DNA of 64,000 bases from Phenylobacterium deserti (GTDB lineage: Bacteria; Pseudomonadota; Alphaproteobacteria; Caulobacterales; Caulobacteraceae), in contig CAMCIK010000003.1 in the NCBI GenBank assembly GCA_945874825.1, positions 62,001-126,000 of the forward strand. Direction: 5' to 3'. The translations under genes and the position numbers were made by a program. This document shows, one piece after another, positions 32,565 through 59,338 of the stretch. Within the stretch, counting starts at the first letter, position 1. Every line of letters begins with the position of its first letter. The notes below the pieces were generated by a model. It had not been told where the DNA came from and did no database searches. It saw only the letters and a program-made list of their open reading frames with translations.

Positions 32565-32593
32565 CCGCTCCCTTCAGTCTTGATCCTGCCGAA

Positions 32594-33238
32594 TCAGCGC
32601 GGTGCATAGAGCCGCGCCGGGCGGTGCGGGCCCCGCTCGAAATCGTCTAGGGCGCGCAGGCTCCCGGATTCCTCGACGAGCTTGCGGAAGTTGCGCTTGT
32701 CGACAGGCCTGCCGATGGTGGCCTCGTAGGCGGCCTGGAGCCGGGCCAGGGTAAAGGCCGGCGGCAGCAGGGGCAGGAGGAAGCCGGGATCTGCCCGGAC
32801 TTCAGTTGCGAGACGGGAAAGGGCGGCGGCCAGAATGTCGCCATGATCGAAGGCCAGGGTCCCGACCTCGGAAAAGGTCCGCCAGTCGGCCTCGGCGGCG
32901 TCCGTCCCCGCCTGCAGCCGGACCTCCCCTGCGCGAACCAGGGCGAGGTAGGCGACGGAGATCACACGGCCGCGGGGGTCGCGGTCAGGATGGCTGAAGT
33001 TGGCGAACTGCAGGATCCGGCCCGGGCGGACCCCGGTCTCCTCCTCCGTCTCCCGGCGGGCGCAGGCGTCGAGGTCCTCGGTCTCCTGCAGGAAGCCCCC
33101 GGGCAGGGCCCACCAGTCGCCAAAGGGGTCGGCCCCCCGTCGGACCAGAAGCAGCCGAAGGGCTCCGTCGTCCAGGGACAGGATGACGATATCGGTGGCG
33201 ACGGCGGGCCGGGGATACGCGTAACAGAAGGTGGTCAT
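32594..33238 (-). CDS. nrtR: NrtR-like Nudix transcriptional regulator
   Basis: A 214-aa protein from the ATG at 33238. An N-terminal Nudix domain (VAIDVILSL-type start, here VATDIVILSLDDGALRLLLV) is followed by a winged-helix C-terminus (AYEATIGRPVDKRNFRKLVEESGSL, quoted in part: RPVDKRNFRKLVEESG), the NrtR layout. The Nudix box G-x5-E-x7-RE-U-x-EE-x-G-U is complete, so hydrolysis cannot be excluded. NrtR proteins repress NAD-metabolism genes and are released by ADP-ribose. There is no ribosome site before this ATG. An upstream GTG at 33280 would run the gene through the operators, so leaderless translation is possible. Confidence 0.85.
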   Translation of the reverse strand: MTTFCYAYPRPAVATDIVILSLDDGALRLLLVRRGADPFGDWWALPGGFLQETEDLDACARRETEEETGVRPGRILQFANFSHPDRDPRGRVISVAYLALVRAGEVRLQAGTDAAEADWRTFSEVGTLAFDHGDILAAALSRLATEVRADPGFLLPLLPPAFTLARLQAAYEATIGRPVDKRNFRKLVEESGSLRALDDFERGPHRPARLYAPR

Positions 33239-33239
33239 G

Positions 33240-33260
33240 TTAGTGTGTTGACAACACGAA
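33240..33260. promoter_or_regulatory. NrtR operator, site 1
   Basis: TTAGTGT-N7-ACACGAA: a 21-bp palindrome with six of seven arm positions paired and a GTGT-N7-ACAC core. It covers the -35 box of the divergent ADP-ribosylglycohydrolase promoter and abuts the nrtR ATG. It fits the GT-N7-AC core I recall for NrtR sites. Confidence 0.7.
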
Positions 33261-33276
33261 GTAGAATGTGTAGTTT
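33248..33276 (+). promoter_or_regulatory. Promoter of the phosphatase-ADP-ribosylglycohydrolase gene
   Basis: A perfect -35 box TTGACA (33248-33253), a 17-nt spacer, and a -10-like TAGTTT (33271-33276). Transcription would start near 33283, about 39 nt before the TTG start codon at 33322. Both boxes lie inside the two operators. Confidence 0.6.
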
Positions 33277-33285
33277 TCACACTAA
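33265..33285. promoter_or_regulatory. NrtR operator, site 2
   Basis: AATGTGT-N7-ACACTAA: the same GTGT-N7-ACAC core as site 1, with centres 25 bp apart. It covers the -10 element. In addition, TGTTAGTGTG (33238-33247) and CACACTAACA (33278-33287) form a perfect 10-bp inverted repeat framing both sites. Confidence 0.65.
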
Positions 33286-33321
33286 CAGTTCAGCCCGTTC
33301 CGTCAACCACAGGAGCCGCCC

Positions 33322-34848
33322 TTGGTCCGAACCAGCCTGTCCCATCCTCTGCGAATTGACTCGGTCAGCGCTGGCACCGGCTGCGTCGGCATGACGTTCT
33401 CGCCGGGCAAGAAGGGGCCGAGTCCCCTCGGCGACCCCTGGGACCGGGACCTGGAGGCGGACCTGGCCGTGATCACCGCCTGGCGTCCGACCGTGGTCGT
33501 CACCCTGATTGAGGCCGAGGAGTTCACGATCCTACAGACGCCCCGGCTGGGCGAGCAGTTCCGGGCCGCCGGCCTGGAATGGCGACACCTTCCGATCCGC
33601 GACCTGCACGCTCCCGACCCGAGGTTCGAAAGAGCCTGGACCTTCGCGGGCGCGGAGATGCGCGACCTCTTGTCCCGGGGAGGCCGGGTCCTGGTTCACT
33701 GCCGCGGTGGGCGGGGGCGGACGGGGCTGGTGGCCTGCCGGCTCCTGACAGAGCTCGGTGAGCCGGCGGAGGCGGCCCTGCGCCGGGTCCGGGCAGCCCG
33801 GGAGGGCGCGGTGGAGACGACGCCCCAGCTCGAGCATGTCCTGGCCCTCCGGCAGGTGCCGGAGGACCCGGACCGCACCTCCCGTCGCCTCGCCTGCCTG
33901 GCCGCCGGCGCGGTAGGCGACGCCCTGGGTTATGCGGTGGAATTCCTGCGGATGCCGGACATCACCCGCCGGTACGGCGACGCAGGGATCCTGGAGCCGC
34001 AGACCGATACATCGGGTCGCCTTGTGGTCAGCGACGACACCCAGATGACGCTGTTCGCGGCCCAGGGCCTGATCGAGGCCGCGGATTCCACCCTCGAGGA
34101 GAGGACAGCCGCCCAGCGGAAGGCATTCCTGGACTGGCTAGAGACCCAGGAGGGCGACTTCCGGCCCGGCCGCCAGGGCCTCCTTGCCCATCCCTCCCTC
34201 TGGGTGCGCCGCGCGCCGGGCAACACCTGCCTGTCCGCCTTGAGGTCCGGAGGCCGGGGGGACCTGGTCCGCCCGATCAACGACTCGAAGGGCTGCGGCG
34301 GGGTGATGCGGGCGGCACCTGCGGGCCTTCTCCCCGCCATCACGCCCGAGGCCGCCTTCGGCCTGGGCGTCCGGGGGGCCGCCCTGACCCACGGCCATCC
34401 CTCCGGACACCTTCCCGCCGGCGTGCTTTCGGCTTTGGTGGCGCACCTGATGGCGGGGGACGGCCTGGACGCGTCGTGGGGGGAAGTTCGCCGCCTCCTG
34501 GCCCTCCGGGAGGGGGCGGAGGAGACCCTGGAGGTCCTGGACCGGGCCGTCGACCTGTCTGGGCGAGAGCGCATTTCCGACGCCGAAGCCATCCGCCGCC
34601 TCGGCGAGGGCTGGACCGGCCATGAAGCCCTGGCCATCGCCCTGTTCGCAGCCCTGCGGGGCGAGGACCTCATCGACACCCTGAGGATCGCCGCCAACCA
34701 TGACGGCGACTCCGACTCCACAGCCGCCATCGCGGGCAACCTCCGGGGGGCGGAGGAGGGCCTCTATGGCCTGCCACTGGAGTGGATCCTGGCCCTCGAC
34801 GTGATCGAGCCGCTGATCGAGATCAACCGCCGCTGGCCGACGGCCTGA
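33322..34848 (+). CDS. Fused dual-specificity phosphatase and ADP-ribosylglycohydrolase
   Basis: A 508-aa two-domain protein. Residues about 10-175 are a cysteine phosphatase: HCRGGRGRTG (126-135; Cys127, Arg133, CX5R) with the general-acid Asp94 in PIRDLHAPD. Residues about 188-505 are an ADP-ribosylglycohydrolase (DraG/ARH family) with AGAVGDALGY, VSDDTQM and NHDGDSDSTAAIAGN, the two acidic clusters that bind metal ions. It should remove ADP-ribose from a modified target. What the phosphatase acts on is unknown. The start is a TTG with AGGAG six bases upstream. It is divergent from nrtR and apparently controlled by the two operators. Confidence 0.88.
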   Translation: MVRTSLSHPLRIDSVSAGTGCVGMTFSPGKKGPSPLGDPWDRDLEADLAVITAWRPTVVVTLIEAEEFTILQTPRLGEQFRAAGLEWRHLPIRDLHAPDPRFERAWTFAGAEMRDLLSRGGRVLVHCRGGRGRTGLVACRLLTELGEPAEAALRRVRAAREGAVETTPQLEHVLALRQVPEDPDRTSRRLACLAAGAVGDALGYAVEFLRMPDITRRYGDAGILEPQTDTSGRLVVSDDTQMTLFAAQGLIEAADSTLEERTAAQRKAFLDWLETQEGDFRPGRQGLLAHPSLWVRRAPGNTCLSALRSGGRGDLVRPINDSKGCGGVMRAAPAGLLPAITPEAAFGLGVRGAALTHGHPSGHLPAGVLSALVAHLMAGDGLDASWGEVRRLLALREGAEETLEVLDRAVDLSGRERISDAEAIRRLGEGWTGHEALAIALFAALRGEDLIDTLRIAANHDGDSDSTAAIAGNLRGAEEGLYGLPLEWILALDVIEPLIEINRRWPTA

Positions 34849-41158: not shown

Positions 41159-42240
41159 ACGTCGACTTCATCCGGTCCATCGAGGACGCTCTGGCACCCC
41201 GGTCGCCAGACCCCCTCGCCAGGGCGCTCCTGGCCGGCGATGCAGGTCCGTGCTTTCTGATCGGACGCAATGCGGACGCCGCCCGCCTGGCGGGGCCCCT
41301 CCGGGCAGCTGGACTTGTGGACGATGGCGCGCCGGCAGGCTCCACCTGGAACGGGCTCCCGGTGATCGCTTCAACCGACCTCCCGGACGGTGCTGTCCTG
41401 CTGAACACCTCGACGTCGATCCGCCCGGTGGATGTCGTCCGCAGGTTCTCGCAACTCGCGGGTGTCAGGCTCTTGGGTCTACCAGACCTCATGGCTGCGT
41501 CTGGCGGTGTCGAAGCGACACCCGACTTCGTGAGCGAGCAGCGGGCGGACTGGGCCGCCCACACCGGGGCCTGGGCGGCGCTCTACGGGCGGATGGCCGA
41601 CGCGGACTCCCGGCAGATCCTGCTCGATGTCCTCCGATTCCGGCTGACGGCCGACCCCGCCTACATGGCCGCCTACGAGGTAAGGGTCGAGGCGCAGTAC
41701 TTCGAGCCCTTCCTGGATCTCCGGGAGGAGATTTTCGTGGATGCCGGGGGATTTGACGGCGACACGACCGAGGTCTTCTGTGGATGGGACCCGGCCTATC
41801 GCGCGGTCCACCTCTTCGAGCCTTCACCAGCGAACCTTGCGCGGGCCAGAACCCGGCTGGCTGGCCGCCGCGACATCCATTTCCACGGCATCGGCCTGTC
41901 AGATTCAGAGGGGGAACTGGCCTTCGACCCCGATGCCGGCTCCGCCTCCGCTGTCGGGGCGGGTGGGGGGCTGACCATCCGCGTAGAACCCCTCGACGCT
42001 CGGCTGCCCGGGCCAGTCACCCTCATCAAGATGGATCTCGAGGGCTGGGAGACCCGGGCCCTCGCCGGCGCCCGGCGGCTCATCGGCGACTTCCACCCCA
42101 AGCTGGCCCTGGCGGTCTATCATCGGGCGTCAGACTTCCGGGACATCGCCCGCTTCGCCCTGGAGATCCACCCGGACTACCGGGTCTACCTGCGGCACTA
42201 CACCCAGGGCTGGTCGGAAACCGTGATGTTCTTCGTCTGA
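41155..42240 (+). CDS. FkbM family methyltransferase with extra N-terminal domain
   Basis: A 361-aa protein. The C-terminal half carries the FkbM features: EEIFVDAGGFDGDTTEVF (motif I, about 190-207), HLFEPSPANLARA, and LIKMDLEGWETRALAGA. The first ~110 residues include FLIGRNADAARLAGPLRAAG and look like a separate Rossmann-type, possibly nucleotide-sugar-binding, domain. FkbM enzymes O-methylate sugars or polyketides. The GTG start is coupled to the ATP-grasp gene. Confidence 0.85.
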   Translation: MNVDFIRSIEDALAPRSPDPLARALLAGDAGPCFLIGRNADAARLAGPLRAAGLVDDGAPAGSTWNGLPVIASTDLPDGAVLLNTSTSIRPVDVVRRFSQLAGVRLLGLPDLMAASGGVEATPDFVSEQRADWAAHTGAWAALYGRMADADSRQILLDVLRFRLTADPAYMAAYEVRVEAQYFEPFLDLREEIFVDAGGFDGDTTEVFCGWDPAYRAVHLFEPSPANLARARTRLAGRRDIHFHGIGLSDSEGELAFDPDAGSASAVGAGGGLTIRVEPLDARLPGPVTLIKMDLEGWETRALAGARRLIGDFHPKLALAVYHRASDFRDIARFALEIHPDYRVYLRHYTQGWSETVMFFV

Positions 42241-58570: not shown

Positions 58571-59338
58571 TCAGCCGGGGAAGTTGGCCGGGACCACCTC
58601 GGACAGGGTGGGTCCGATCTCGTCGTGGATGACGAGGTGGGCGTAGTCGTCCAGGTCCGTGGAGTCCCGGTTCACGATCACAAGGCGCGCCCCGGACCGC
58701 CGCGCCTGCAGGGGAAAGCCCGCCGCCGGCCAGACGGTGAGGCTGGAGCCCAGCACCAGGAAGAGGTCACAGGACAGGGTTTCTTCCTCGGCCCGGCGCA
58801 TGGGTTCCTCGGGCATGGACTGGCCGAAGGAGATGGTCGCCGTCTTCACGATGCCCGAACAGTCCCGGCAGGCGGGCAAGTCGCCCCTCGCCTCGAAGGC
58901 CGGGCGCAGGTCGTCGATCTCGTGGCGAAGGCCGCAGGACAGACAGGTCGCATAGCTGGCGTTGCCGTGCAGCTCAATCACCCGGTCGGCCGGGATGCCG
59001 GAGTGCTGGTGCAGGTTGTCGACGTTCTGGGTGATGATGGCGGACAGGCGCCCGCTCTCCCACAGGCGGGCCAGGGCGAAGTGGCCGGCGTTGGGCTCCC
59101 GCCCCGTCCAGCCGGCGCGGCCCTGGAAGGCCCGGGTCCAGGATTCCCGGCGCTTTTCCTCGCTGTTCACGAAATCCTGAAACTGGATGGGCTTCATCCG
59201 GCTCCAGACCCCGCCTGGCGAGCGGAAGTCCGGAATTCCCGATTCCGTGGAGATTCCGGCCCCGGTGAAGGCCACAATCCGCTCCGCAGACCGCAGGACC
59301 TGCGCCAGATCGTCCCGCTTTGCCGATTTTCCGGTCAA
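58571..59338 (-). CDS. Sir2 family NAD-dependent deacylase (sirtuin)
   Basis: A 255-aa sirtuin. FTGAGISTESGIPDFRS is the NAD loop, TQNVDNLHQHSG the catalytic core, and IELHGN carries the active-site His. A four-cysteine zinc site is seen as CLSCG and CRDCSG. It removes acyl groups from lysines using NAD. I start it at a TTG at 59338 with GGAG seven bases upstream. The frame continues to 59617, overlapping the ammonium transporter gene on the other strand, and those residues are not sirtuin-like. Confidence 0.9.
   Translation of the reverse strand: MTGKSAKRDDLAQVLRSAERIVAFTGAGISTESGIPDFRSPGGVWSRMKPIQFQDFVNSEEKRRESWTRAFQGRAGWTGREPNAGHFALARLWESGRLSAIITQNVDNLHQHSGIPADRVIELHGNASYATCLSCGLRHEIDDLRPAFEARGDLPACRDCSGIVKTATISFGQSMPEEPMRRAEEETLSCDLFLVLGSSLTVWPAAGFPLQARRSGARLVIVNRDSTDLDDYAHLVIHDEIGPTLSEVVPANFPG

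Follow-up and report, generated by a model that had tools for sequence, protein, structure and literature searches.

What kind of control does the short gap between an nrtR gene and the gene of an ADP-ribosylglycohydrolase fusion protein exert in Phenylobacterium deserti, and which regulator would read it? The two genes lie in a stretch of 64,000 nucleotides (assembly GCA_945874825.1, contig CAMCIK010000003.1, positions 62,001 to 126,000), which is called the window here. They are divergently oriented, with nrtR at 32594..33238 on the minus strand and the fusion gene at 33322..34848 on the plus strand. Our reading, held at a probability of roughly 0.78, is that they form a repressor-operator module of the NrtR family that is autoregulated, controls both the hydrolase fusion and nrtR and responds to ADP-ribose-type induction.

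The gap between the nrtR ATG (33238, minus strand) and the hydrolase TTG (33322, plus strand) is 83 bp long and contains two GTGT-N7-ACAC palindromes, both strandless and both kept in relatives. Operator 1 (33243..33257, GTGTGTTGACAACAC, centre 33250) lies over the predicted hydrolase -35 and adjoins the nrtR ATG on its upstream side. Operator 2 (33268..33282, GTGTAGTTTTCACAC, centre 33275) lies over the predicted -10 elements of both genes. The initial annotation had described two identical operators within 83 bp with centres 25 bp apart. The two sites, the gap and the 25-bp spacing are as described, but the identity is restricted to the 4-bp arms, since the 7-bp centres differ. It had also described a 10-bp perfect inverted repeat framing both sites. 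This repeat is present, with strandless arms at 33238..33247 (TGTTAGTGTG) and 33278..33287 (CACACTAACA), but it was rejected as an element of its own, because the arms are the outer half-sites of operator 1 and operator 2 together with their flanks.

The palindrome is rare. Three copies of GTGT-N7-ACAC were observed in the window against 0.19 expected, and the third copy, at 41507, overlaps open reading frames of 154–361 codons. A tandem pair appeared in 0 of 150 whole-window resamples, and its probability in an 83-bp stretch of the local dinucleotide content is about 1e-4. In the assembly (2.56 Mb, 93.7% complete), the extended form TAGTGT-N7-ACAC matched exactly at these two operators only. 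The window excess, the resampling, the genome-wide rarity and the ranking of the motif upstream of NrtR loci (below) reject chance repeats. A wide regulon in this assembly was also rejected, as far as exact matches go, since no further TAGTGT-N7-ACAC was found.

Both operators coincide with predicted promoter elements. As had been claimed, the hydrolase -35 TTGACA (33248..33253, plus strand) lies inside operator 1 and the hydrolase -10 TAGTTT (33271..33276, plus strand), 17 bp after it, lies inside operator 2. The -35 reads TCGACA in locus L057, and the -10 reads TAATTT in L035 and L036 and TAAAAT in L057. On the minus strand, the predicted nrtR -35 TTGACG (33301..33306) and -10 TAGTGT (33279..33284) are 16 bp apart. 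Both are invariant in the four close loci (window, L035, L036 and L057), as is the hydrolase ribosome-binding site AGGAG (33311..33315, plus strand). The hydrolase TTG start and the nrtR ATG are kept in the three closest loci. A consensus promoter scanner at its threshold reported neither promoter, so both are predictions resting on conservation and geometry. Because operator 2 covers the -10 of both genes, the operator pair would serve both, and the earlier claim that the hydrolase promoter is the target is extended to that of nrtR itself.

The expectation that NrtR binds these sites comes from BtAraR, an NrtR-family regulator of Bacteroides thetaiotaomicron. BtAraR was crystallized with DNA containing GTGTTACTTTTACAC, and its contacts are said to define GTGT (PMC4666351). 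The oligonucleotides used for the crystal and for electrophoretic mobility shift assays contain GTGT-N7-ACAC, and the araM promoter has two copies (PMC4666351), which we compute to be 24 bp apart. The BtAraR dimer covers 25 bp (PMC4666351), so the 25-bp spacing in the window would put two dimers edge to edge. The recognition helix of the window NrtR is D180-K181-R182-N183-F184-R185-K186. In the alignment, the BtAraR DNA contacts K179, R180, N181, K184 and R205 correspond to K181, R182, N183, K186 and R206 of the window NrtR. With a K-R-N-x-x-K helix and a GTGT-N7-ACAC operator, the window NrtR belongs to the GTGT-reading (BtAraR-type) subgroup.

The same association was found across the NrtR loci compared. 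Of 2304 palindromic forms counted in the upstream regions of 38 NrtR loci, GTGT-N7-ACAC ranked first; it was tandem in 10 of the 38, with 3 for the next best form. In an alignment of 36 proteins, which left out L036 (truncated) and L124 and L128 (both partial), 280 bp were examined for each. At least one exact site was found for all 13 NrtRs with a KRN helix and for 1 of the 23 others (Fisher p 6e-9, a value that ignores shared descent and biased sampling). These 36 proteins served both to find the KRN rule and to count it. L102 was counted by a site upstream of the first gene of its operon, which was chosen post hoc, since in the first pass no site lay within 250 bp of the nrtR gene. On the tree, 3 changes suffice for the KRN label, versus 10.9 with shuffled labels. 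Inside the KRN clade, Pro replaces the Arg of the helix in L107 and L118, and both lack a site. Together with the BtAraR operator match, the contact residues and the conservation at orthologous pairs, these results argue by homology that the operators belong to NrtR, as had been predicted, and that NrtR very likely binds both.

Conservation was the check set beforehand, and absence of the motif in front of orthologous gene pairs was to count as refutation. The tandem motif is present at 7 of 8 orthologous divergent pairs (window, L035, L036, L057, L058, L059 and L100), and the eighth, L052, is without it. The spacing is 25 bp in the window, L035, L036 and L057, and 32 bp in L058, L059 and L100. 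One of the two copies in L057 carries one mismatch. On an Akkermansiaceae contig of another phylum (L037), nrtR, phosphatase and hydrolase genes are consecutive, and two exact sites occur at a spacing of 22 bp. The module is patchy. Full-length NrtR of the window kind was found in 4 of 36 same-genus genomes G000–G035 (G000, G002, G031 and G034), and NrtR profile searches at E <= 1e-40 gave matches in 8 of 385 genomes at the level of the class and in 25 of 398 at that of the phylum.

The identities of both proteins are clear from Pfam. The 214-aa regulator, whose ATG is kept in relatives, contains a Nudix domain (PF00293, NUDIX, E 1.9e-22) and a winged-helix domain (PF21906, NrtR_WHD, E 6.9e-18, 65 bits versus a cut-off of 27), in agreement with its earlier naming as NrtR. 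It scored 127.9 bits for NCBIfam NF050029 (ADPR responsive transcriptional repressor) versus a curated cut-off of 400, which places it outside that narrow equivalog. The controlled enzyme had been named an ADP-ribosylglycohydrolase, and its C-terminal domain is one (PF03747, ADP_ribosyl_GH, E 7.7e-61). The name needs a correction, since in the 508-aa protein, whose TTG start is also kept, this domain is fused to a dual-specificity-type phosphatase at the N-terminus. HCRGGRGRTG begins at residue 126, SDDTQM at 237 and HDGDSDSTAAIAG at 460, and we take these three motifs to be catalytic. SDDTQM and HDGDSDST, presumably the metal-binding aspartate motifs, are both present and place the domain in the DraG/ARH family. 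The fusion is the sole PF03747 match found in the assembly. No match to the Macro domain and none to DarT was found there, DarT being the only ADP-ribosyltransferase family searched for.

ADP-ribose lifts repression by characterised NrtRs (PMC4666351), and it suppresses DNA binding by SoNrtR of Shewanella oneidensis, as reported in the same paper. By homology, binding, repression and induction by ADP-ribose would also be expected at this module. NrtR dimers would bind GTGT-N7-ACAC via the same recognition helix as BtAraR. Two dimers would lie next to each other across about 50 bp (33238–33287) and block both divergent promoters. For the hydrolase, the -35 would be covered under operator 1 and the -10 under operator 2; for nrtR, the -10 would be covered under operator 2, with the leader and start codon beside operator 1. 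Rising ADP-ribose, or a close relative, would bind the Nudix domain and move the winged helices out of register, and both genes would be released. The fusion enzyme might then strip ADP-ribose from its substrate, whose identity is a matter of speculation, and the phosphatase might trim a phosphate, giving more ADP-ribose. An inducer of this kind combined with an enzyme that makes ADP-ribose means that the hydrolase would induce itself in a positive loop. The product-responsive feedback switch suggested at first is plausible by homology in its ADP-ribose logic, but the loop would be positive rather than simple negative feedback. Shut-off of such a loop would need an ADP-ribose sink. The reset could be provided by NrtR itself or by another pyrophosphatase that destroys ADP-ribose; catalysis by NrtR is speculative.

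Several observations weigh against this model. One wing contact is changed (BtAraR K204, H205 in the window NrtR), and the SoNrtR ADP-ribose contacts N43 and K76 are replaced by A36 and E67, the latter being one of the Nudix catalytic glutamates. The predicted hydrolase -10 is weak and agrees with TATAAT at 3 of 6 positions. The profile for the class and phylum searches was built with KRN proteins in 6 of 7 rows, so the loci are an uneven and non-independent sample. In 15 further plasmid NrtRs the fit was weaker, and only one of three KRN proteins (L158) had a site within the fetched stretch; the other two, L165 and L167, lie within sugar operons and had none there. Of five plasmid RRN proteins, L162 has two sites, spaced by 25 bp, in the gap that separates nrtR from the next gene; L161 has one site beyond nrtR, and L159, L160 and L166 have none. 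L172 (NRN helix) has no site, and none was found near nrtR in the other six, L164 having one at 2.8 kb. The orthologous pair L052, from another genus of the family (G336), lacks GTGT-N7-ACAC; its NrtR has diverged (helix DRSNLYK), and two GTG-N7-CAC 25 bp apart were seen by eye. Finally, three genomes (L053, L054 and L055) encode the full-length fusion with no NrtR match or site pair in the surrounding 5.4–6.0 kb, so the enzyme does not require an NrtR regulator.

The explanation that survives best beside our model keeps the operator and the repressor and changes the effector, for example to ADP-ribose-1''-phosphate, O-acetyl-ADP-ribose, NAD or a pentose. We consider it a minority possibility, with about one chance in four. 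BtAraR, which reads the same operator, answers to L-arabinose, and NdnR of C. glutamicum answers to NAD (PMC4666351). The pocket can be read either way. R41 and R98, which contact ADP-ribose in SoNrtR (PMC4666351 residues), align with R34 and R89 of the window NrtR, and two of the four SoNrtR contacts compared are thus kept and two replaced, in a comparison of residues only; an offset of 3 between the numbering of the paper and of the chain was consistent for all four. R34, R86 and H132 of the window NrtR are also arabinose-binding residues of BtAraR (PMC4666351). R89 sets SoNrtR apart from BtAraR, which has Gly89 at this position, and it is kept in the window and invariant in 7 of 7 rows of alignment A1. 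NAD or ADP-ribose genes also neighbour related nrtR genes in L102, L158 and L159, which likewise argues for an ADP-ribose-type effector. The phosphatase in the fusion hints at a phosphorylated substrate. Sirtuin-family enzymes can make O-acetyl-ADP-ribose, and the sirtuin-family gene of this genome is a possible source of it. That gene (PF02146) lies at about 58727–59263 of the window, about 25 kb from the operators, and is the sole sirtuin-family match reported for the assembly. On this balance, the ligand of the window NrtR is likely ADP-ribose-like, and we infer ADP-ribose as its inducer.

A second explanation, which we regard as improbable, is that NrtR acts chiefly as an ADP-ribose pyrophosphatase, with DNA binding as an additional property, and that its main role here is the disposal of ADP-ribose made by the hydrolase. 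The Nudix catalytic box of the window NrtR (residues 48–69) is intact, with GX5EX7REXXEEXG complete, and the catalytic glutamates RE..EE occur in 12 of 13 KRN NrtRs (the exception is L104) versus 1 of 23 others (L052). In NAD-type NrtRs the box is impaired and several are inactive (PMC4666351), and a "dual-function prototype" is described in PMC6800001. A complete box is no proof of activity, and the complete winged-helix domain with the main DNA contacts and the conserved operators favour regulation. Under the repressor model, NrtR could still hydrolyse ADP-ribose, its own inducer. The last explanation, that the repeats are sites of another regulator or belong to a promoter architecture conserved independently of NrtR, is very unlikely. 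In its favour, the sites overlap promoter elements that are conserved in their own right. Against it, the motif goes along with the recognition helix of NrtR in different phyla and gene contexts, and it is identical to the operator solved for BtAraR.

Exact sites also accompany related nrtR genes in other contexts. Two sites 23 bp apart lie upstream of the first gene of a NadM-Nudix/NAMPT salvage operon in L102, and two sites 23 bp apart occur in L101, where nrtR is beside an SPFH gene. One site each was found in L122, beside a queuosine-salvage protein, and in L104, beside a MoCF-domain protein that is read as COG1058-like; ADP-ribose pyrophosphatase activity is described for the COG1058 family (PMC3680494). 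On a plasmid of Leptolyngbya sp. NIES-3755 (AP017309; L075:984-4684), a KRN-type nrtR is divergent from a class II Argonaute and SIR2 pair called by PADLOC, with two GTGT-N7-ACAC sites 23 bp apart. In L103:4048-7538, a KRN-type nrtR and the gene of a TIR-WD40 protein diverge, and the gap between them holds two exact sites 243 bp apart. Each of the latter two is a single case. We tentatively propose, as a possibility less likely than its opposite, that a cross-phylum subgroup of KRN-helix NrtRs with tandem GTGT-N7-ACAC and an intact Nudix site acts as a self-resetting ADP-ribose switch that hydrolyses its own inducer. It would be deployed at NAD salvage, ADP-ribosyl hydrolase and NAD-consuming defence genes, the last on the strength of those single cases.

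Further observations concern the surroundings and the spread of the module. The three neighbours scanned in the window are metabolic genes of an ordinary kind, encoding a sulfatase, a peptidase and a short-chain dehydrogenase, and none of them encodes an effector nuclease or a chaperone. In the close relative G029 (L203), the peptidase (88% protein identity) and the sulfatase (94%) are present and the nrtR-hydrolase module is absent, and homology to the window ends at 32568, 4 bp past the peptidase stop codon. A clean empty site could not be delimited there, since the final 1.5 kb of the contig had no blastn match to the window (E 1e-10) and the junction is undefined. A phage origin found no support: of 24 matching records in the phage collection, 0 reached 80% coverage of the fusion protein, and scanning viral contigs with the NrtR alignment yielded 27 loci without a full-length match. 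On Prevotella sp. E2-28 plasmid NZ_CP091789 (L159), the gene directly after an annotated ADP-ribosylglycohydrolase gene is of the NrtR type, with the helix DRRNF and an intact Nudix box. Two DUF1810 genes come after one further gene, and no GTGT-N7-ACAC occurs in the fetched stretch. In G336 (L052:2335-7952), a 182-aa gene without Pfam match lies behind nrtR, with a weak GIY-YIG match and a SNF2-type helicase nearby, and this neighbourhood resembles the conflict-system neighbourhoods of PMC9503650 more closely. Most of 60 genomes scanned have a second NrtR_WHD match (for example G000:C23:23865-24185), in frames mostly of 317–571 codons that match the C-terminal winged-helix part of NrtR only. 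A second NrtR was rejected, and these proteins are probably NadQ, because the solved NadQ factor (7q91) has its match in that part too.

The gene set and the ADP-ribose logic were already part of a prediction of 2022, the operator type was solved with BtAraR in 2015, and the nrtR-hydrolase pairing in the window is a clear new example of this switch and docking-site type. No paper giving this operator for the ADP-ribosyl hydrolase systems was found in the open-access literature searched; the founding NrtR paper of Rodionov et al. 2008, which may contain the motif, is outside that scope. The hydrolase systems predicted by Iyer et al. gain a concrete operator, together with a structural template for how it is recognised and a claim that can be tested at the bench. 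If KRN helices and GTGT-N7-ACAC sites also go together in an even sample, the NrtR targets of distant bacteria would become predictable from sequence. Whether such repressors clear their own signal is a testable question that the intact Nudix box raises.

The closest system is that of Iyer et al. 2022 (PMC9503650, section 3.8), which describes systems centred on an ADP-ribosylglycohydrolase (ARG), in which the repressor is of the Nudix or WYL type and the phosphatase belongs to the rhodanese superfamily. For the set of hydrolase, phosphatase and Nudix repressor, ADP-ribose induction and a positive loop were predicted there, and protection from phage ADP-ribosylation was proposed. The window has the same composition, with the ARG and the phosphatase in one polypeptide, a Nudix-HTH (helix-turn-helix) repressor, proposed derepression by ADP-ribose and no coupled or adjacent ADP-ribosyltransferase found (DarT alone was searched for). 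Unlike those systems, its neighbours are metabolic, without effector nuclease or chaperone, and an operator, which section 3.8 does not give, is described here. BtAraR (PMC4666351; PDB 5bs6, 5dd4, 5ddg and 5deq) shares the NrtR family, the tandem GTGT-N7-ACAC (24 bp in BtAraR) and the main DNA contacts, but has L-arabinose as effector, a degraded Nudix box, a sugar regulon and Gly in place of R89. SoNrtR (PDB 3gz5, 3gz6 and 3gz8) shares the Nudix and winged-helix architecture and the two ADP-ribose-contacting arginines, whereas its helix is QGKSFRR (DKRNFRK in the window), its catalytic glutamates are lost and its regulon is that of NAD. MsNrtR of Mycobacterium smegmatis is likewise an auto-repressor opposite its target operon with an N7-centred palindrome between them, and ADP-ribose antagonises its binding (PMC6800001). 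In contrast to the window module, its half-site is GTTTTCGA and its target is nadABC (PMC6800001).

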